A stretch of DNA of 22,924 bases, from IMG/VR virus record IMGVR_UViG_3300023174_000663, positions 1-22,924 of that record. One strand, written 5' to 3'. The notes beneath the pieces were generated by a model. The model worked only from the letters and a program-made list of their open reading frames with translations, was not told the origin of the DNA and made no database searches. Both the position numbers and the translations under genes were made by a program. Positions 5,857 through 22,924 of the stretch are shown here, in pieces; the first letter of the stretch is position 1; every line of letters starts with the position of its first letter. This DNA is from a virus.

Positions 5857-6111
5857 ATGCCTTACCGTATCCACATCAACAGCAACACCATACGCTCCAA
5901 TAAAAAGCACGGCACTAACAAGCCCCCTATCACTATCCGCAAGGGCAACAAAGTCATTGGCTATGTTCAGTCTTTGAAGATACTTGGAGAGAGTACGGTC
6001 GTGTACCAGCCAGACAATCCCTTGCCCTGTGGTGCTAAGGTATGGATTGAAACAGAAGCACCAATAGAGATTACAGAACTTGGAGAGATACTAAATGCCT
6101 ACACTAAATGA
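5857..6111 (+). CDS. Conserved small phage/plasmid protein of unknown function (84 aa)
   Basis: The ATG at 5857 after GTAGGAGTAGAG is preferred to the upstream in-frame ATG at 5761, which gives an Arg-rich shadow. The pattern R-I-H-x-N...R-x-N-x-K-x-G...P-P-I-T-I...V-x-Y-x-P-D-x-P-L-x-C-G-A-x-V-W-I-E-T-E matches, from memory, a small beta-rich family present in many phages and mobile elements without an assigned role. The 'PLPCGAKVWIETE' segment (about 56-68) is the most conserved part. Its stop lies inside the next gene. Confidence 0.8.
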   Translation: MPYRIHINSNTIRSNKKHGTNKPPITIRKGNKVIGYVQSLKILGESTVVYQPDNPLPCGAKVWIETEAPIEITELGEILNAYTK

Positions 6112-7419: not shown

Positions 7420-9438
7420 TTAGGGAACTTCACACGTATCTGTGGTGCAGAACTTCTCGCCGATAGCATCAGCACCTAGTCCAGCGTACACATCTGAGAA
7501 GTCAATGCGTAGCAACTTGTGGGTGTATGCTTCGTACTCTTCCGCAGTAATCTGTGTGTATGGCATCTGTGGGTATGTCTTATTACCCATAGGCAGGAAT
7601 GATACAGACTTCAGCTTGCCATCGTACATTGACAAAACCTTGCCTACATCGCTCTTCTCACCGTCAGCATCAAACGATACTGTTACTGATACAGAGTTAT
7701 CTGACCAGAACTCCTGAGCCATGGCAGCAAGGTTAGCTTTTTCGTAGATGGATACTTCCTTTTCAGAACGCTTTGCCTGCGACTTGATAGGGAAGAACAC
7801 AACGCTAGTAGTCTTTGGGGACTCACTGGCTGGCTCTACCGTGTAACCTGCGTACTCAAAGAGAGGAAGCATTGGGTCATCATTAGCCATGCGGATTGCT
7901 CGTAGGAAGTACTCGCCACCTGGGGTCCAGTGAACACCTGGGCTCTCACCTGCAAGGATGCTTACAGTACCTGACGGCTTTACCGTAGTCATCTTGATTG
8001 ACTCACGGATACCTAACCACTCGCTGTATGTTTCATCGTGGTGCTTGATTGTTGCGTAGCCATCATTCATCCACTGGCGTAGCTTGGTAAGGTTATTGCG
8101 GTCAAAGAAGTTAGCGACACCTGACATTGACGTACCGATACGACGGTTACGCTGCATGATGGCGTTGGTCTCTTCCCAGTGGGTAGGTAGGAGCGTGACA
8201 GTCTTGGCATACAGGTACGCAAACTTCAACGTGCGCTTGTAGTCCTCTAGGCTGTCGTGGCGGTTCAAGAATGTCTCCACGAGGGTACAGCACTCAAACG
8301 ACTCTAGGCTCTGCTCTGCACAAGGGTTGTACCCAGCGGCTCGCCAATCTTTATTGGTTGGTGCGTCAGTTAGACGACCATACTGGCGTGTAACATCCAT
8401 CCATAGAACCCCAGGCTCACCATTAAGGGCAATGCCCTCTACGATGCCCGATAGGTCGTCTCCGACCTTGACCTCTACCGAGTTGTTACTCATCCACGCC
8501 CAACCTGGGCTATCAGGATGGTATGAGTTACGTACAGGAAATACTTCTGGGTTCTTAAGATTGAGGAAGTCTTGGTCATTTAGCTGTCCCATTAATAGTT
8601 CAGCGGAACGACGCACATTACCACTTACAACGCAGACACCAATTAGGTTACCAATGTCAGCAATATCTACCTTAGTAAGTAGCTGTCCTGCACGACCATC
8701 AAACAAATCACGTAACTTAACGTGCAATGCCTGCAATGGGGCTGGTCCAGCGGCAGTTCCACCAAACGTCTTAATTGGCGTACCCTCTGGACGAATGTTG
8801 CTGAAATCCATATCAACTACATTCTGTTCTGGGCGCAGGTATGAGTTGATAATTAACTTAGTTGATTCTACCCAACCCTCACGAGTATCTGGGATAACGT
8901 AAGTTACAGGGGCGTCTTCACTAGGCTTGTAAATGGTGAACTCTTTGTCTGCGCCCTTGTCATCAAACCCTACGCCTACACCTAGCATTGAGGCTTCCAT
9001 CAGGAACTCAAATGGCTTAGCAGGGTTGTGCTTGGTCATAGCATCCGTGGATACGAATGAACAGTTCTGTAGGGCGGCTGAGTTCTTGTGCTCATTAACT
9101 AGCGGTGTGCCCATCATCCATAGCCCACGACCTGGAGGTGTCCACTTCAAATTGAATAGGCGGTCAAACGCATCCTTGGCTGAGTTCTGTGCTTTCTTCT
9201 CATTCCACGGCAGACGGTTAGTCTTGCAGTGGTCTTTCTGAATGGAGTACATGCCGTTAATTACACGGGTACAAATATCTATCCACGTCTCTTTCGTGCC
9301 GTCATCTTTCTTACGCGAGTACTTTGTAAGGAATGTAATTTCCCCTACTGAATTGCCTCCAGCATCCTCGTACCCCCAAGGAACTTTCTTACCCTCGTAG
9401 GTTGCTACGAAGTCGTCGGCTAACTTAAATGACAGCAT
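7420..9438 (-). CDS. nrdJ: Class II (adenosylcobalamin-dependent) ribonucleoside-triphosphate reductase
   Basis: 672 residues. Active-site motif N371-P-C373-A-E375; redox Cys candidates C126 (ALQNCSFVS) and C383/C384 (FECCTLVE); the C-terminal shuttle pair C664-x4-C669 (FCTTDTC) matches the spacing of the Lactobacillus leichmannii enzyme. VKPSGTVSILAGESPGVH (487-503) and CVVSGNVRRSAEL (269-281) are conserved RNR segments. It converts ribonucleoside triphosphates to dNTPs in the cytosol using B12, without oxygen, and needs a host thioredoxin to recycle the disulphide. Its length suits the monomeric phage/lactobacillus type. The start follows AGGATAAGT. Two perfect palindromes lie upstream. Last gene of the minus-strand operon. 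Confidence 0.96.
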   Translation of the reverse strand: MLSFKLADDFVATYEGKKVPWGYEDAGGNSVGEITFLTKYSRKKDDGTKETWIDICTRVINGMYSIQKDHCKTNRLPWNEKKAQNSAKDAFDRLFNLKWTPPGRGLWMMGTPLVNEHKNSAALQNCSFVSTDAMTKHNPAKPFEFLMEASMLGVGVGFDDKGADKEFTIYKPSEDAPVTYVIPDTREGWVESTKLIINSYLRPEQNVVDMDFSNIRPEGTPIKTFGGTAAGPAPLQALHVKLRDLFDGRAGQLLTKVDIADIGNLIGVCVVSGNVRRSAELLMGQLNDQDFLNLKNPEVFPVRNSYHPDSPGWAWMSNNSVEVKVGDDLSGIVEGIALNGEPGVLWMDVTRQYGRLTDAPTNKDWRAAGYNPCAEQSLESFECCTLVETFLNRHDSLEDYKRTLKFAYLYAKTVTLLPTHWEETNAIMQRNRRIGTSMSGVANFFDRNNLTKLRQWMNDGYATIKHHDETYSEWLGIRESIKMTTVKPSGTVSILAGESPGVHWTPGGEYFLRAIRMANDDPMLPLFEYAGYTVEPASESPKTTSVVFFPIKSQAKRSEKEVSIYEKANLAAMAQEFWSDNSVSVTVSFDADGEKSDVGKVLSMYDGKLKSVSFLPMGNKTYPQMPYTQITAEEYEAYTHKLLRIDFSDVYAGLGADAIGEKFCTTDTCEVP

Positions 9439-9510: not shown

Positions 9511-10983
9511 CTATTCTTCAATACCTTGCTGAATGATGCGAGTAACTTGCTCTTCGCCATATCCGCCGTGAGGTAACTCCGTTAGATTTTGAGCCTTTTC
9601 ACCAAAAATTTGGGATAAAACTCCGCCCCCATTTTTAGCTTCAACAGTCATCCTAACGTATGATGATGTATCTTCCAAATCCTTCATTGTCTTCAGTAGT
9701 TTAAATAATCTATCTACTTCTTGACTAGTATTAGGGTCTGGGTATCCACCATTCATTTCTTCCGCAAACCTTGCAAATGCTATGCGTTGTCCTTGCATTT
9801 CAATAATTGCATTAAGTAAAGCTGTTAACTGTTCTTTAGTCTTTACCTCTACTGGAAGGCTAAATGCACAAGTGTTACTGACCTTAAACGCAGGACAATT
9901 AGCGGCAACAAAACAAGTGTCACACATACGCAAGCTTGTCGCATTAGACCTCATTAACGGAACATCACGAATGATATCTATACCGTTTTCATCTTTCTCA
10001 ACAACCGTCTTAATCTCGGTTCCAAACACAGGTAACATCATCATGTCTTGAGGATTACGTGCTTCAAATTTCCGCATCTGACCCCCCCTACTATCAGGTA
10101 CAACGGGGGTGTTTTCCGTGTTATCGGTATCCTGCATATTTACCGAGCTATCATATATCTCGGAATCATCTGCTTTATGGCTAGTCATGTTAAACCTCTT
10201 CTCATACTGGTCGTATGACCATAGGGCTAACTTAGCCACTTCTACTGGGTCGTCGTTTACTATTTTATCAAAATCCAGCCCAGCCTTCTCATAGACTGCC
10301 TTGTATCTTGGACGTGCTTGGTCTTTCATCTTCTTTGGGTAGCGTACTAACTTATTGCCATCCCATACAATGGTCTCTCCACGCATCATCGGACTTAACC
10401 ATGACTGCGTAGATGCAGTTGCTACTTGAATCTGACGTAAGTTATCAGGCTTGGCGCAAGCTAAAGCATGGAATGTAGTACCAAACTGCGTTGATAGTGC
10501 CCTAGTTTTTGCGGCTAGTGATACATCGGCCTCAATAATTGAATAAGGTATAGCTATATCTTTGTACTGTTGACACATCTCTACAATTTCAGCATACGAA
10601 TGGTCTTCACGCATAGTGGCCCAAAACTTTTCTTCATCAGACCATGCGGCTTCACGCTGTGCTTTTATTGCATTTTTGCTTAAAATTGGGTGGTCAATTT
10701 CAATGAATGAATTAATTCTTTCCATATTGTGCGCCAAAAAATCTTCGTAAGCTACGGCAAAAGTTTCTAACTCATCTGCACTAATTTGCGCGTTGTCTGG
10801 AAGACCTGGGTGCACATAAATATTCATGTAATTTGGAAAGTAATTATCTAGCAGGTAACGTTTATTTTTGGGCAACCCGCGTTGTGTTAAACGCCAAAAG
10901 GATACACCAACATTACGTACCCCCATTGACTCCATAATTACCCTGTTGCTGGGTACGTCTGCGCCTAAGTAAACTAAGTCCAT
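9511..10983 (-). CDS. TGT/DpdA-like TIM-barrel candidate fused to a Cys4 domain (490 aa)
   Basis: Not a firm identification. The N-terminal ~265 residues resemble, from memory, a phage protein family related to tRNA-guanine transglycosylase/DpdA: VRNVGVSFWRL (22-32), a 'FHALACAKPDNLRQ' segment (171-184), 'ASTQSWLS...RGETIVWDG' (190-209), and 'ARPRYKAVYEKAGLDFDKI' (223-241). The 'DSGAF'-type active-site Asp I would expect near residue 55 reads NIYVHPG, so the enzyme may be altered or inactive. After a polar linker (266-300), the C-terminal part has C354-x2-C357-x5-C363-x8-C372, a four-Cys metal or Fe-S cluster candidate, followed by a helical region (384-450) and a LSQIFG motif. The gene overlaps the HAD-like gene by 10 bases. 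DNA here is AT-richer than in the plus operon. Confidence 0.8.
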   Translation of the reverse strand: MDLVYLGADVPSNRVIMESMGVRNVGVSFWRLTQRGLPKNKRYLLDNYFPNYMNIYVHPGLPDNAQISADELETFAVAYEDFLAHNMERINSFIEIDHPILSKNAIKAQREAAWSDEEKFWATMREDHSYAEIVEMCQQYKDIAIPYSIIEADVSLAAKTRALSTQFGTTFHALACAKPDNLRQIQVATASTQSWLSPMMRGETIVWDGNKLVRYPKKMKDQARPRYKAVYEKAGLDFDKIVNDDPVEVAKLALWSYDQYEKRFNMTSHKADDSEIYDSSVNMQDTDNTENTPVVPDSRGGQMRKFEARNPQDMMMLPVFGTEIKTVVEKDENGIDIIRDVPLMRSNATSLRMCDTCFVAANCPAFKVSNTCAFSLPVEVKTKEQLTALLNAIIEMQGQRIAFARFAEEMNGGYPDPNTSQEVDRLFKLLKTMKDLEDTSSYVRMTVEAKNGGGVLSQIFGEKAQNLTELPHGGYGEEQVTRIIQQGIEE

Positions 10984-18814: not shown

Positions 18815-19831
18815 TTACCGAATAGTTGACCTAAACTCTGTACCAGAATATACGCCCCAACCATCCATGATGTGCACGTTCTCAATGGTAAACTCGCCAG
18901 TATCCTTGTACCAAATGACACCAATACCTTGTTGCCAATTCTCGTACTGCTTTACTGGGTGCAAGTTGAGCATCGTACCACCCTTGTAAGAGGGTACCGC
19001 ACCATCAATACGGCATAGACAGCCTGGACTGTAAGCACCATTCTGAATCGCTCCACCGCTAGTATCGTGAGTCTTGTATAACAATTCCATACGATGTGAG
19101 TGCCCATAGATTGTAGATTCATGGTGATTAGAACTAACGTGCTTCAACGCAGTAGACCCATTGCTGGATGCTGCTGAACCGTGACGAGCCACGAGACGTG
19201 GGTTAATGTAATACTTATCTGCTGGATAGCCAGAGACGTGAGTTACGTTTCCGATGCTCTTCAGATTAAGTAGATGTGGAATACCAATGATTGGGTCTAG
19301 CGCCCCTACCTGACGTACCTCTGACAAGTTCTTAGCCATAGCCGTGATATACCGAGTAGGTCGGCAATCGTGGTTACCGTCAATGTAGACAATTTCAGCG
19401 TTAGGTGCAAAAGCCCGCTGGCTAGCAATATAGTCATGAGCAGCCTTTAGGGAAAGGTTTACAGTACCTTCAAATGTAGGCTCTGTAGCATACTTACCAA
19501 ACATAGGCAAATCTAGGGTATCGCCAAGATTGATAATCTTGTCAACCCCATATTCTGCTTCTAGGGCAGCAACAACCTGCATAGCTACATTGATAGCGTG
19601 TACATCATGAAACGGGTCTAGCGTCCCATCTTCGTACTTACGGAAGCCAATCTGAGTATCAGGAAGGGCTACTGCTAATTTCCAATCATTCTTTTTCTTA
19701 TTTTTTACTTTAGCCTTTGACAACTTAGGTAAAGTTGCAGCCTTAGCTTGAATAAGTGGGGTAGACGTATCTACCTGTGGGTCTGCTAGCGCTTCAAATA
19801 AAATATCTAGTAGGTCTACGCTTTTGGACAT
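18815..19831 (-). CDS. Calcineurin-like metallophosphoesterase (D-x-Q variant)
   Basis: 338 residues from the ATG at 19831, which has AAGGG 9 bases upstream; a TTG at 19837 would add two residues. Metallophosphoesterase motifs: P-D58-T-Q60 (usually D-x-H, here Q), G-D104-x-x-D (NLGDTLDLP), G-N153-H154-D (IDGNHDCR), H217 (ARHG) and G-H244-S-H246. All metal ligands but the first His are present. The N-terminal 50 residues are Lys-rich and probably disordered. It hydrolyses phosphodiesters or monoesters with two metal ions. Its substrate is unknown; phage members have been linked to DNA or nucleotide processing. Overlaps the HTH gene by 16 bases. Confidence 0.9.
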   Translation of the reverse strand: MSKSVDLLDILFEALADPQVDTSTPLIQAKAATLPKLSKAKVKNKKKNDWKLAVALPDTQIGFRKYEDGTLDPFHDVHAINVAMQVVAALEAEYGVDKIINLGDTLDLPMFGKYATEPTFEGTVNLSLKAAHDYIASQRAFAPNAEIVYIDGNHDCRPTRYITAMAKNLSEVRQVGALDPIIGIPHLLNLKSIGNVTHVSGYPADKYYINPRLVARHGSAASSNGSTALKHVSSNHHESTIYGHSHRMELLYKTHDTSGGAIQNGAYSPGCLCRIDGAVPSYKGGTMLNLHPVKQYENWQQGIGVIWYKDTGEFTIENVHIMDGWGVYSGTEFRSTIR

Positions 19832-20055
19832 GTGCAATTACCCTTCATATGGGTCTTAAAAGTTGTTAACTGAAATAAAATCTCTGAGGAGCGCAAGTCA
19901 CGATAAAGCCCTGCAAGATTAATGTTTGGTTTTGCTTTAAGTTGGTCAAACAAAGCGTTGACTTTTTCATCTTGTTCATCTAGCCATTTACCAACTAGAC
20001 ACTTTGAATGTTTTGGCTTTCCTTCTAAATGCTCTTGCAATATATCAGCAATCAT
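19816..20055 (-). CDS. Small phage HTH-type protein with C-terminal HxxGxCxC
   Basis: 79 residues. Pattern K-C-L-V-G-K-W-L (18-25), helical middle (DEKVNALFDQLKAKPNINLA, GLYRDLRSSEILFQLTTFKT), and H69-M-K-G-N-C-T-C at the end. This layout (Cys, two helices, H-x2-G-x-C-x-C) is familiar from actinobacteriophage small helix-turn-helix proteins. Exact role unclear; it may bind DNA with a zinc site made of Cys and His. AGGAGA site; a terminator and a -35/-10 pair lie upstream. Confidence 0.72.
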   Translation of the reverse strand: MIADILQEHLEGKPKHSKCLVGKWLDEQDEKVNALFDQLKAKPNINLAGLYRDLRSSEILFQLTTFKTHMKGNCTCPKA

Positions 20056-20090
20056 TTGTTCTCCTAAGTAGTAGCCGATTGATTTAGATT

Positions 20091-20118
20091 AGCATACTAT
20101 ACGACGAAGAAACGACAA
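20091..20118 (-). promoter_or_regulatory. Candidate sigma70-type promoter for the HTH gene
   Basis: On the minus strand: TTGTCG (complement of 20113-20118) and TATGCT (complement of 20091-20096) with a 16-base spacer. It starts at the edge of the terminator hairpin and points to the HTH and metallophosphoesterase genes. TATGCTAAT also occurs at 16735-16743 next to the plus-strand gene. The overlapping TATAGT is an alternative -10. Confidence 0.45.
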
Positions 20119-20145
20119 AACCCCGCCCAAAAAAGGACGGGGTTT
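20118..20145 (-). terminator. Rho-independent terminator after the 110-aa gene
   Basis: Stem AAACCCCG-C-CC (20118-20128) with GG-A-CGGGGTTT (20135-20145): 10 paired bases and one C/A mismatch around an A6 loop. On the minus strand it is followed by TTTGTCGTTTCTTCG. It lies 14 bases past the stop of the 110-aa gene at 20159 and separates that unit from the HTH and phosphoesterase genes. Because the arms begin and end in A/T tracts it may also act weakly from the other side. Confidence 0.83.
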
Positions 20146-20158
20146 CGGCTAAATGTTT

Positions 20159-20491
20159 TTAGTTATGGTCTACAGCACCCTGGTAGAAGTTAGGAGCACT
20201 ACGGTTAGTAGCAGCCGAAAAAATACGACCATTTGCTAGAGTTGCACCTGCTTCTGGAGCAGTGTGTGCCTCAAAACCTACCTGAACACCGTAGCAGGCA
20301 CCACAACGCTCTTTTGGGGCATAAGTACGGTTTGCGTAAGGTTGGAAAGCGGGGTCATTTGCCTTAGAATGCATACGAGCCATTAGTGTGGTGTAGTGTG
20401 AGTTTTCAGCAGATACAGCAACTGGATAAGCACTATCTGGGATAGCATTACCAGGAACTGGAGCCAAAGGGCTAGGATTAACTGACGACAT
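20159..20491 (-). CDS. Hypothetical 110-aa protein
   Basis: Unrecognised. The Ala/Pro/Ser-rich N-terminus (NPSPLAPVPGNAIPDSAYPV) is low complexity. The middle 'ERCGACYGVQVGFEAHTAPE' contains C-x2-C; the end is Asn/Ala-rich. GAGG 7 bases before the ATG. It stands between SpoVS and a strong terminator, with AT-rich gaps on both sides, so it may be its own transcription unit. Confidence 0.72.
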   Translation of the reverse strand: MSSVNPSPLAPVPGNAIPDSAYPVAVSAENSHYTTLMARMHSKANDPAFQPYANRTYAPKERCGACYGVQVGFEAHTAPEAGATLANGRIFSAATNRSAPNFYQGAVDHN

Positions 20492-20551
20492 TATAAAACC
20501 TCATTAATAGATAGGTACCTTAGTAAAGTCTAAATGAAAATTTGCAATAAA

Positions 20552-20830
20552 TCAGTCTGAAACAATAACAAAAACAATGGCTGAAATAGTGCCATCGTGG
20601 CTCTCAATGCTAGCAAAACCAGGAATACACTTAAGGTCTAACCCACGAGGAGCGGTGTACCCTCGGGCAATAGCAATAGCTTTTACAGCCTGATTTACGG
20701 CCCCTGCACCAACTGCGCGGAGCTTGCACGTCTTGTTGTCGTAAATGCTATGAGCAATAGCGGATGCAACGGATTGGGGGTTTGAACCAGCGCTTACCTT
20801 TAGCACTTGGTCCTCTGGTAGTTCTGACAT
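20552..20830 (-). CDS. spoVS: SpoVS-family protein (stage V sporulation protein S-like)
   Basis: 92 residues. VLKVSAGSNPQSVASAIA (9-26) and LRAVGAGAVNQAVKAIAIAR, then GYTAPRGLDLKCIPGF (37-72) are the two conserved SpoVS blocks; the family has 'LKVSA-SxPxSVAxAxA' and 'AIGAGAxNQAVKAxAIARG'. The length (about 86-92) is normal. Cellular SpoVS is an Alba-like-fold protein that influences sporulation and septation in Bacillus and is conserved in many sporulating bacteria. The molecular role is unclear, but a nucleic-acid-binding dimer is likely. GAGG site 8 bases before the ATG. It lies after the RuvC-like gene with a 61-base AT-rich gap that probably holds its own promoter. Confidence 0.93.
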   Translation of the reverse strand: MSELPEDQVLKVSAGSNPQSVASAIAHSIYDNKTCKLRAVGAGAVNQAVKAIAIARGYTAPRGLDLKCIPGFASIESHDGTISAIVFVIVSD

Positions 20831-20891
20831 TTAAATACCTCGTATAATAGAACGGTTGTTACATCTAGTATGGGGTATTAACCGAACAAAA

Positions 20892-21437
20892 TCACGGTGA
20901 AACTAGCTTATCGTACACTTCTTTTTCATATTCAAAGTCGTGAGCATTGCGAGCAATTCTGGCCAAGCCATAAGAATCTGCAGCGTTATCATCAGTAAAC
21001 TCTACGCCCCACTTTTTGTAAACAGCCAACAAAATTTGGTTTTTATCTACTCGTCCTTTACCAGTAATGTATTTCTTTAAGCTGGTAGGTGGGACTACTA
21101 AAGGAAAAGCGGCCTCTTCTGTTTGAAACCGATATTTGTCAAAAAGAGCTAAACGTATCATTCCACCCAGTTCGCCAGCCATATTAGCCATTTGGCTTCC
21201 AAACGCATAACCTTCAATAGCAATGGCTTCCACAATGAAAGTATCCAAAAAGCCGAGCATAAAAGCCCGAGCTTTATGAAGCCTTTCAACACCCGTTCCA
21301 TCAAGTTTTTTTACCTCCGTGTAGTAATTTCCAACGGCATCAATAGCAGTAATAGCAAAGCCAGAATAAGACTGGTCAATTCCTATGGCTACTGCGCCTT
21401 TAAGATTTGGTGAACCCCAAATTTTTGGATTAGGCAC
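20892..21437 (-). CDS. RuvC-like Holliday junction resolvase
   Basis: 181 residues from the GTG at 21437, preferred because it overlaps the upstream gene by only 8 bases; the frame is open to 21530. Motifs: A-I-G-I-D21-Q-S-Y-S-G-F-A-I, A-I-A-I-E75-G-Y (72-77) and D149-D-N-A-A-D154-S-Y-G-L-A. These are the RNase H-like RuvC core acidic residues. T125-G-K-G-R-V-D-K-N-Q precedes the last helix, as in RuvC. It would cut four-way DNA junctions during recombination or packaging, probably as a dimer with Mg2+. Next to the UvsY-like candidate, it fits a recombination group. Confidence 0.88.
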   Translation of the reverse strand: MPNPKIWGSPNLKGAVAIGIDQSYSGFAITAIDAVGNYYTEVKKLDGTGVERLHKARAFMLGFLDTFIVEAIAIEGYAFGSQMANMAGELGGMIRLALFDKYRFQTEEAAFPLVVPPTSLKKYITGKGRVDKNQILLAVYKKWGVEFTDDNAADSYGLARIARNAHDFEYEKEVYDKLVSP

Positions 21438-21663
21438 TTCCCAGTCCAACTCTCTGTAAGGAAGCACAAGGGTAAGCTTGAGGCTGCTCAACCCCATCAA
21501 TAAGCTCTTTACAAATACCGCAGTTACCATTCACATTTGGATGACGCTCTAAATGTCTACGCTGAATCTCTAAATAGGTTGGAAGCTGTGCTTTCTTTTT
21601 ACGAGACTGGGGGCCATATTGAGCCAACAATTCTTCTCGTTTTTTAGCGGTATCTCTACTCAT
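21430..21663 (-). CDS. 77-aa basic protein with Cys motif
   Basis: The ATG at 21663 is chosen because AGAAGATA precedes it and the upstream start at 21744 would cover the tiny neighbouring gene. Basic N-terminal half (SRDTAKKREELLAQYGPQSR, KKKAQLP). Then 'RHLERHPNVNGNCGICKELI', giving C48-x2-C51 with H37/H41, and C66 in a YPC context. It resembles the H-x3-H...C-x2-C...YPC pattern of its neighbours. Possible nucleic-acid binder. Confidence 0.7.
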   Translation of the reverse strand: MSRDTAKKREELLAQYGPQSRKKKAQLPTYLEIQRRHLERHPNVNGNCGICKELIDGVEQPQAYPCASLQRVGLGSA

Positions 21664-21978: not shown

Positions 21979-22259
21979 TCTTGCTCACCGTCTAATGCTT
22001 TGATAGTTGGACAAGGGTAGTCTGAGTAGCAGTCTTGACACATAGTCCAGTCCTCAATGTACTCTCCACAACAGTCAGGGTCACCACACACACTGTCGTT
22101 GGCATCCACTTCTTTGTGCAACTCACGCACACGCTTAACAGCCTCAACTGCTTCATCAAGGGTAGGCTCATCTTCATACAACCCAGCCTCTTCAGCAATA
22201 CGAATCATGTCTGCTAGTGCCTCTTTACGGATAGCCGCTTGGCTACTGTAATCGCACAT
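21975..22259 (-). CDS. 94-aa 'YPCPT' Cys protein, copy A
   Basis: Longer paralogue of the 73-aa gene. Same 'RVRELH' (43-48) and the same tail, YPCPTIKALDGEQE, with an extra Cys block: C58-x4-C63-C64, C74-x2-C77 and C83. The N-terminal helix is different (RKEALADMIRIAEEAGLYED). TGATG junction with the UvsY-like gene, ATGA junction with copy B. Two genes in a row from one duplication. Confidence 0.77.
   Translation of the reverse strand: MCDYSSQAAIRKEALADMIRIAEEAGLYEDEPTLDEAVEAVKRVRELHKEVDANDSVCGDPDCCGEYIEDWTMCQDCYSDYPCPTIKALDGEQE
21976..22019. repeat. Direct repeat copy 2 (gene tail and next start)
   Basis: Second copy of the 44-base repeat. In addition, TGCAACTCACGCACACGCT is identical at 21860-21878 and 22117-22135. 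So both the RVRELH segment and the tail are duplicated, with about 39 extra bases in the longer gene between them. Confidence 0.8.
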
Positions 22260-22735
22260 CAGGTTGTGAACTTACTGACTCGGCTGAAGTTACCAGACGT
22301 ACGGCGAGTCAACTCACGGCTAATAAAAGCACAGTCACGCTCAACGTTAATATGAAGCATCTCCATACCTTTGCGGTAGTTATGCTGAACTTCATACCTG
22401 TACTCAGCCTCCTGAACCGTATCCTCTACGGCTACCAAAGCTTTAATAGCGGCTACGGTCATTTTAGGTTGAGTATGCTTAGCCGTAAACTCTGCCTCAA
22501 TAAGGTCCAACTGCTTCTTAGCAGACGACTCATCCATAGCCGCTACAGTAACCTGAGCAAGGATAAAAGATAAGTAAGCGTTGTACTCTTGCCATAACCT
22601 CATTACACCCAAATCATCAAGGTCAGTAATATCAAAAGGCATATCTGGAATGATACCTTCAAACTCAGTATCAATCCCAAATCCTTGACTACGCATAGTA
22701 TCTAACGCCAAGTTAGCACTATCTCCCAAACGCAT
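22259..22735 (-). CDS. Helical protein, possible UvsY-like recombination mediator
   Basis: 158 residues from the ATG at 22735; a GTG at 22759 is the alternative. All-helical, with 'LWQEYNAYLSFILAQVTVAA' (about 47-66), 'KMTVAAIKALVAVEDTVQEA', 'EYRYEVQHNYRKGMEMLHIN', and 'FISRELTRRT' near the end. The last motif and the 'A-E-x-x-Y...L' helix pattern recall T4-type UvsY-like proteins, which load recombinase on ssDNA. This is weak recognition. Its position upstream of the RuvC-like gene is consistent. It could also be a generic phage coiled protein. Confidence 0.7.
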   Translation of the reverse strand: MRLGDSANLALDTMRSQGFGIDTEFEGIIPDMPFDITDLDDLGVMRLWQEYNAYLSFILAQVTVAAMDESSAKKQLDLIEAEFTAKHTQPKMTVAAIKALVAVEDTVQEAEYRYEVQHNYRKGMEMLHINVERDCAFISRELTRRTSGNFSRVSKFTT

Positions 22736-22736
22736 A

Positions 22737-22924
22737 TTAATTGTCACTGTACACTTCACACTTCTTGCACATCGTGCCGTTGTTAACGTTACAAGCAGGT
22801 GGAGTGTCGTTCTTTACTGCCTCAACGATAGATAGAGCAGCGTCAAACAACTCAGTAACACCAAAGTCAGACTTACTAACCACAAGTTCTTTACGCTTCT
22901 GGTCTACCTTGGATTCGTAAATAA
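22737..22924 (-). CDS. Partial Cys-containing protein, 5' end outside window
   Basis: 62 residues to a TAA at 22737, open to the end of the window with no start seen inside. Helical region (IYESKVDQKRKELVVSKSDF, TELFDAALSIVEAVK), then CNVNNGTMCKKCEVYSDN with C-x7-C-x2-C, again a Cys motif near the C-terminus. Function unknown. It lies immediately upstream of the UvsY-like gene. Confidence 0.66.
   Translation of the reverse strand, partial: IYESKVDQKRKELVVSKSDFGVTELFDAALSIVEAVKNDTPPACNVNNGTMCKKCEVYSDN

Follow-up and report, generated by a model that had tools for sequence, protein, structure and literature searches.

SpoVS is part of the core gene set in one group of large actinobacterial phages, and not a stray host gene. 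One such gene is found in the window, the 22.9 kb stretch of viral DNA analysed here (Table 1). On a slight balance of probability the encoded protein belongs to a phage-owned SpoVS subfamily, core in large Borockvirus-related actinophages, which would use Alba-type nucleic-acid binding in DNA processing, and the leader of the gene would set its timing in many metagenomic relatives.

Table 1. Features of the window and the evidence for each
Feature	Position	Strand	Evidence or remark
SpoVS-family protein, phage subfamily, 92 aa, ATG start	20552..20830	(-)	Pfam, PHROG, AlphaFold2, dN/dS
Shine-Dalgarno GAGG of SpoVS	20838..20841	(-)	sequence
Leader between RuvC and SpoVS	20831..20891	(-)	inverted repeat pairing with the Shine-Dalgarno in many relatives, weak in the window
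Candidate promoter GTGATT-17-CATACT, overlapping the RuvC end	20867..20895	(-)	position of the element in relatives
RuvC-like resolvase, directly upstream of SpoVS	20892..21530	(-)	phrog_159, E=8.3e-26
166-aa gene homologous to LuckySocke gene 160, itself annotated 'SSB protein'	22259..22759	(-)	32% identity, E=2e-19
x110, 110-aa protein, conserved next gene downstream of SpoVS	20159..20491	(-)	ORF, recurrence in relatives
Intrinsic terminator, 13-bp stem, after x110	20116..20147	(-)	terminator prediction
Metallophosphoesterase, two genes beyond x110, not constant among relatives	18815..19837	(-)	phrog_20266, 1.6e-65
Queuine tRNA-ribosyltransferase-like gene	9511-10983	(-)	phrog_887
Ribonucleotide reductase, end of the minus-strand block	7420-9438	(-)	phrog_367, E=1.2e-137

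Identity and predicted fold of the window protein

The window ORF matches the Pfam SpoVS profile (PF04232) at E=1.2e-29 with 102.3 bits, the curated cut-off being 24 bits. Residues 8-89 align to positions 1-82 of the 83 in the profile, and the name given to the gene in the first-pass annotation is therefore sound. PHROG 35646, a family labelled 'sporulation protein', is matched as well (E=9.1e-26). Sequence matches in the PDB are restricted to 2eh1 and 2ek0, both T. thermophilus SpoVS (E=1.4e-15). The AlphaFold2 model of the protein has a mean pLDDT of 90, and its predicted fold matches first 2eh1 (TMq 0.89, Foldseek E 2.8e-11, Z 16.7). Alba proteins rank next after the SpoVS structures in the search with the model, at Z about 10-11 (1h0x: Foldseek E 5e-5, Z 10.4), and the matches to the predicted fold include also the Alba-RNA complex 3wbm and RNase P/MRP subunits. 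This order of matches speaks for the Alba-like fold that had been proposed from the sequence. SpoVS is placed in the Alba superfamily in the retrieved passages of PMC11621453, a paper in which the words 'phage' and 'virus' are absent from the main text.

The dN/dS ratio of spoVS, about 0.04 and the lowest among six genes (nine of twelve chosen relatives yielding a value), is a rough figure because dS is close to saturation, and points to a functional gene under strong purifying selection. Among ten local genes compared in loci chosen by the p179 gene, SpoVS features also the highest median identity (81%). The protein would act as an Alba-type nucleic-acid-binding protein, either in recombination, in replication or as a DNA/RNA chaperone.

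Distribution of SpoVS genes in phages

By tblastn, SpoVS was found in 14 of 50,697 phage records. Six are Streptomyces phage records (five phages, BRock occurring twice); the rest are Lysinibacillus, Bacillus, Stenotrophomonas, Bacteroides and faecal records. A scan of IMG/VR revealed at least 595 SpoVS relatives among the 599 candidate stretches listed, the best 80 of which were retained. In the best 80 of the at least 595 relatives, homologues of the window neighbours were identified for the 166-aa gene in 77 loci, x110 in 76, RuvC in 75, p179 in 72 and the metallophosphoesterase in 49, counts lowered by loci that end short.

SpoVS is similarly found when relatives are chosen by other genes. 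It is present in all 74 loci chosen by the p179 gene that have at least 4 kb upstream (80 loci were sampled, and six were too short to judge), and in 12 of 12 records of at least 80 kb chosen by the major capsid protein, a sample drawn from the best 80 matches in each of two longer lists. Adding two shorter fragments, one of them with SpoVS, the gene is carried by 13 of 14 capsid-chosen records. Since SpoVS occurs in every judgeable relative of two samples drawn with other genes, it is a lineage gene and not an occasional acquisition. The phage setting first described for it is confirmed.

The 156 loci of the first metagenomic set correspond to 104 distinct SpoVS sequences, and the 80 loci retrieved with the SpoVS of BRock (the BRock SpoVS set) to 63; some contigs recur. 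The most constant of seven SpoVS neighbours tested is x110, located near SpoVS in 152/156 first-set loci, 75/80 loci of the BRock SpoVS set and 4/4 Streptomyces phage loci. The SSB-like gene is near SpoVS in 151/156 and 69/80 loci of the two sets, and was not found within 3 kb of SpoVS in the four Streptomyces phage loci. RuvC is near SpoVS in 144/156 first-set loci, in all four Streptomyces phage loci, and in only 9/80 loci of the BRock SpoVS set. The notion that RuvC and SpoVS form an inseparable pair was rejected on this last count: either their adjacency is common yet not universal, or RuvC is in these loci too diverged for detection.

The seven actinophage neighbour genes were found in none of 90 cellular spoVS loci and in none of 17 Stenotrophomonas-type loci. 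The latter belong to a separate set of SpoVS phages (L275-L291 plus L083), comprising 17 loci found with the SpoVS of Stenotrophomonas phage TS-12; these lack the actinophage neighbours, and their SpoVS proteins fall among cellular forms in the tree described below. No relative was found scanning with the Lysinibacillus phage SpoVS.

Gene neighbourhood and kinship with Streptomyces phages

The RuvC-like neighbour reported in the first-pass annotation is upheld by its PHROG match; the score against Pfam RuvC alone is below cut-off (E=0.041), and the protein is 36% identical to the RuvC-like product of LuckySocke gene 173. The small uncharacterised gene noticed on the other side of SpoVS is x110, which is without a Pfam or PHROG match at E 0.1. 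The window copy of x110 carries a CxxC motif. A search for defence families with five window proteins gave no match.

Mapping of two relatives, 96.5 and 95.5 kb long, showed collinearity with Streptomyces phage LuckySocke from the terminase through SpoVS. Their identities to LuckySocke are 53-54% for the terminase, 56-59% for the portal and 71% for the capsid protein, and the common order continues with tail sheath, helicase, polymerase, RecA and SpoVS. Given the tail sheath homologue, the group is myovirus-like. The genes preceding SpoVS in the two relatives match LuckySocke genes for RecA, Holliday junction resolvase, WhiB, Cas4 exonuclease, SSB and a RuvC-like protein, all names being taken from the LuckySocke annotation. 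Within this block Pfam confirms RecA and WhiB only; RuvC is below cut-off (E 0.0015), and nothing was found by Pfam for the Cas4-like, SSB-like and resolvase-like proteins, apart from a spurious 0.08 match of the last. The window contains only the SSB-like and RuvC-like genes of the block. The queuine tRNA-ribosyltransferase-like gene of the window is 30% identical to a LuckySocke gene at the corresponding place, and has homologues in both mapped relatives. The annotated ribonucleotide reductase of LuckySocke sits near the polymerase gene, unlike that of the window.

Of the 22 long records tested, 21 encode WhiB; ten of the 22 had been picked up by way of SpoVS or p179. The whiB gene lies upstream of SpoVS, at about 3 kb in the relative G007 and at 6-7 kb in BRock and LuckySocke. 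In the retrieved passages of PMC10914622 and PMC6802176, whiB is used as a sign of actinobacterial hosts. Both the kinship with Streptomyces phages and the frequency of WhiB bear out the link to actinobacteria that had been guessed from the window.

That an Alba-like SpoVS coats phage DNA, or is packaged with it, is very improbable: the predicted fold is close to that of the archaeal chromatin protein Alba (Z about 10-11), and small conserved uncharacterised genes come after spoVS, but in LuckySocke the gene is surrounded by genes of DNA metabolism, and some 58 kb separate it from that of the capsid.

The PDB model 9a7h is a YunD-SpoVS complex, and the metallophosphoesterase encoded near SpoVS in the window is a possible partner. 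YunD is a metallophosphoesterase of B. subtilis. The link prompted by 9a7h was found to be unsupported, as a PDB search with the phage enzyme gave no relevant sequence match. No mention of YunD was found in the open-licence PMC literature searched for such a link.

Phage and cellular SpoVS proteins

In a SpoVS tree of 93 rows and few columns, in which the bootstrap is not settled and the root is for drawing only, actinophage proteins, metagenomic and Streptomyces together (33 rows), are split off from the rest by a branch of length 0.97 and support 100/99. The other side hosts all 47 cellular rows, 12 rows from other phages and TS-12. The cellular rows derive from the best 80 of 526 matches of one scan plus ten Actinomycetota loci. 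Nesting with cellular SpoVS, a prospect raised in the first-pass annotation, is thus not seen: the phage proteins stand apart, opposite to the 47 sampled cellular rows. Among the rows sampled, phage copies do not nest with cellular copies, as those of a host-derived auxiliary metabolic gene would with the copies of the host.

SpoVS is above cut-off in 122 of 396 Actinomycetota genomes. It was found in none of the 19 genomes that bear SsgA (hypergeometric P 7e-4, ignoring relatedness) and in none of the 44 that bear rhodopsin (hypergeometric P 3e-8, similarly ignoring relatedness). The SsgA family is typical of sporulating actinomycetes such as Streptomyces, and the genomes with SsgA are relevant to the Streptomyces phages in culture. 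The rhodopsin set is a stand-in for planktonic lineages, a guess at the hosts of the metagenomic phages. Both marker-defined sets may represent phage hosts. As SpoVS is absent from them, a role in sporulation is unlikely. In the control set, SpoVS was found in Thermus, Deinobacterium and Thermotoga genomes. Since these bacteria are not known to sporulate, the label of sporulation factor is too narrow; the SpoVS identity given earlier stands.

Viral spoVS genes have been reported as sporulation genes in soil (PMC6172770) and in a marine oxygen minimum zone (PMC8940887), and are mentioned in the same terms in PMC9765229, according to the retrieved passages of the three papers. The term 'spoVS' is absent from PMC10294663, which deals with sporulation genes of gut phages. 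Viral spoVS is therefore already in print; no description of its core status in actinophages or of its leader was found in the portions of the open-licence PMC literature searched.

The view that the phage blocks or forces host differentiation through SpoVS is improbable. It would agree with the origin of the family name in sporulation, with the reports that count viral spoVS as a sporulation gene, and with the presence of WhiB upstream in relatives, WhiB being tied to host septation in the retrieved text of PMC6172770. It is opposed by the lack of SpoVS in the SsgA-bearing and rhodopsin-bearing genomes, by the separation of phage copies from cellular SpoVS in the tree, and by the occurrence of SpoVS throughout both the metagenomic and the Streptomyces phage samples. 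The direct link to host development put forward in the first-pass annotation is not supported. Phage SpoVS is likelier to bind nucleic acid in phage DNA processing than to steer host sporulation, and for this lineage the sporulation reading of viral spoVS looks wrong. Because spoVS is fixed in the phage lineage while the marker-defined genomes tested lack it, survey counts should not by themselves be read as evidence of viral dormancy control.

What SpoVS does at the molecular level is poorly understood even for Bacillus, and a 2008 analysis reportedly called the protein uncharacterized. For this reason, a phage with a laboratory Streptomyces host offers a direct route to the role of the family.

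Promoter and leader of spoVS

A promoter of its own had been deemed probable for spoVS. In the window considered by itself this does not hold, as a consensus scan of the minus strand from 19800 to 21600 revealed no promoter-like site; the support for an own promoter comes only from relatives, which retain a promoter-like element at the corresponding position. By this position, the candidate -10 element of the window is at 20872-20867, and the predicted start at about 20860. In the aligned upstream DNA of the relatives, CATAAT-like elements are found, frequently preceded by a -35-like hexamer at a distance of 17 bases, and promoter scores of spoVS exceed those of seven control genes. The elements are enclosed by inverted repeats. 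The right arm of these is the Shine-Dalgarno (SD), and the left arm changes along with the right one between clades. In the window leader the only repeat recognised by eye is AATACC (20879-20874) facing GGTATT (20839-20834); this leader folds no better than shuffled sequences (z +0.67), and its own arms pair as swapped ones do (-6.1 vs -6.2).

Leaders of 98 dereplicated phage spoVS genes have a mean z of -1.63, with 60 below -1 and 36 below -2. For seven neighbour genes of the same loci z ranges from -0.43 to +0.05, and it is -0.12 for cellular spoVS (n=81) and -0.11 for spoVS of other phage lineages (n=12). Of the eight genes of these loci put to the test, only spoVS showed the signal. When arms were swapped between leaders, the native arm paired better than those taken from other leaders in 70 of 90 cases, by 2.5 kcal/mol on average (p=1.1e-10), and this arm-swap test is null for the seven neighbour genes and for cellular spoVS; P values ignore relatedness, which is equal in the control genes. 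By group, the own arm is better in 54/66 leaders of the first metagenomic group (p=1.9e-9), in 11/14 of the second (p=1.5e-3) and in 5/10 of the Streptomyces-type group, a null result (p=0.38).

Predicted pairing of the SD is 0.77 in the read-through RNA and 0.37 in the RNA from the internal promoter, being lower in the latter in 89 of 97 leaders; shuffled leaders give 0.60 and 0.47, respectively. In 86 of 95 leaders, the bases that pair with the SD precede the predicted start. Many metagenomic relatives may thus share one device. The mRNA reading through from the upstream block would sequester the SpoVS SD in a hairpin, and a promoter located within the hairpin would give rise to a shorter mRNA lacking the 5' arm. 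SpoVS would be made mainly after the internal promoter fires, and its production would come later than that of the upstream recombination block, or separately from it.

Several results set bounds to this picture. RNAalifold found 0, 0 and 4 pairs in three MAFFT leader alignments, pairs being scarce because arm spacing varies; in the clade nearest to the window, column-wise covariation is not seen because the right arm does not vary. The mean z of eight new leaders, of which two are identical, is -0.38, and one of them is below -1. Judged by eye from the predicted structures, L515, L517, L520 and L521 have a mostly or fully paired SD, and L523, L524, L525 and L527 an unpaired one. SD pairing alone was rejected as a decisive sign, as the SD of x110 leaders is also largely paired (0.67 vs 0.74 for spoVS). 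A genome-wide regulatory element is unlikely: G003 has a single copy of the strict motif CCTCATAAT, located at spoVS, G007 and the window have none, and a looser form is present 29, 24 and 9 times in the three, respectively. No Rfam match at gathering score was found in the window, L003, L125, L300 and L331. TS-12 (L083) is included as one foreign row in the leader alignment, the neighbour-gene z values, the SD comparison with x110, the control swap and the G-U sets, and is left out of the 98-leader z, the 90-leader swap test, the promoter scores and the SD pairing in 97 leaders; the SD pairing result is unchanged when this row is included. The motif-based leader subset left out L038, L043, L045, L062, L063, L076, L133, L164 and L270. 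A 14-pair inverted repeat spanning both Shine-Dalgarno and start codon (z -6.1) was observed in the 88-kb record L297, at 5879-5961 (+).

The repeat could alternatively be a DNA operator, bound by a repressor at the SpoVS promoter, and not an RNA hairpin. This reading, which concerns the leader only, is unlikely. In its favour, G-U pairs are not enriched (0.87 vs 1.19 per leader), and many relatives have the -10 element between the arms of the repeat; yet the SD is where pairing with bases before the predicted start is strongest (0.75, vs 0.20-0.39 at four to twelve bases off-centre) though SD sequences differ between clades, and several nested arms, judged by eye, have no common centre.

SpoVS may itself bind RNA, like some members of the Alba superfamily, as a post-transcriptional regulator of phage or host mRNAs, perhaps repressing its own synthesis at the leader. 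The modelled fold matches the Alba-RNA complex and the RNase P/MRP subunits, Alba is described as DNA/RNA-binding in the retrieved text of PMC11621453, and the leader signal is confined to spoVS among the eight genes tested. Such a regulator is nonetheless rather unlikely, as the signal is missing in leaders of cellular spoVS and of other phage lineages, and the right arm varies between clades, so that no conserved binding motif is seen. The preferred reading remains that of an Alba-type protein engaged in DNA processing. In its broadest form, in which SpoVS would be an old, fixed DNA-processing part of widespread actinophages, independent of sporulation, with hosts lacking SpoVS and a T4-like hairpin timing in many, this reading is tentative and short of probable.

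Comparison with known systems

T. thermophilus SpoVS (2eh1, 2ek0) shares with the window protein a match over the whole length of the profile and the same predicted fold, and differs in being only 46% identical to it. Alba proteins (1h0x, 3wbm) have the overall fold in common with the model; identity to the window protein is about 10-20%, and nucleic-acid binding of the latter is putative. All cellular SpoVS proteins sampled are separated from the phage group by a branch of 0.97 changes per column. The viral spoVS genes treated as auxiliary metabolic genes in the retrieved parts of PMC6172770 and PMC8940887 belong to the same family and are similarly found in viral contigs, but are read there as sporulation genes, and not as core phage genes as here.

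The closest cultured relatives are the Borockvirus-like Streptomyces phages BRock, LuckySocke, Alone3, GiJojo and pSt2308, the SpoVS proteins of which are 52-54% identical to that of the window. In BRock, LuckySocke and GiJojo, SpoVS comes after a gene annotated as RuvC-like, as in the window, and LuckySocke has many collinear homologues in the metagenomic relatives, with the capsid identity to two of these given above. In the Streptomyces-type group the leader pairing signal is unsupported, unlike in many metagenomic relatives.

In phage T4, an RNA helix masks the ribosome site of genes e, soc, 49 and I-TevI; in e and I-TevI the site becomes accessible through a late promoter situated within the region (retrieved passages of PMC3014915 and PMC2988022). 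The SD is hidden in the longer transcripts of the T4 genes, and is predicted to be likewise hidden in many metagenomic relatives. The systems differ in that the T4 promoter is a late one whereas the element found here is sigma-70-like in look and known from sequence alone, its window copy being weak. If the leader is real, a classic timing device of T4 extends to actinophages.
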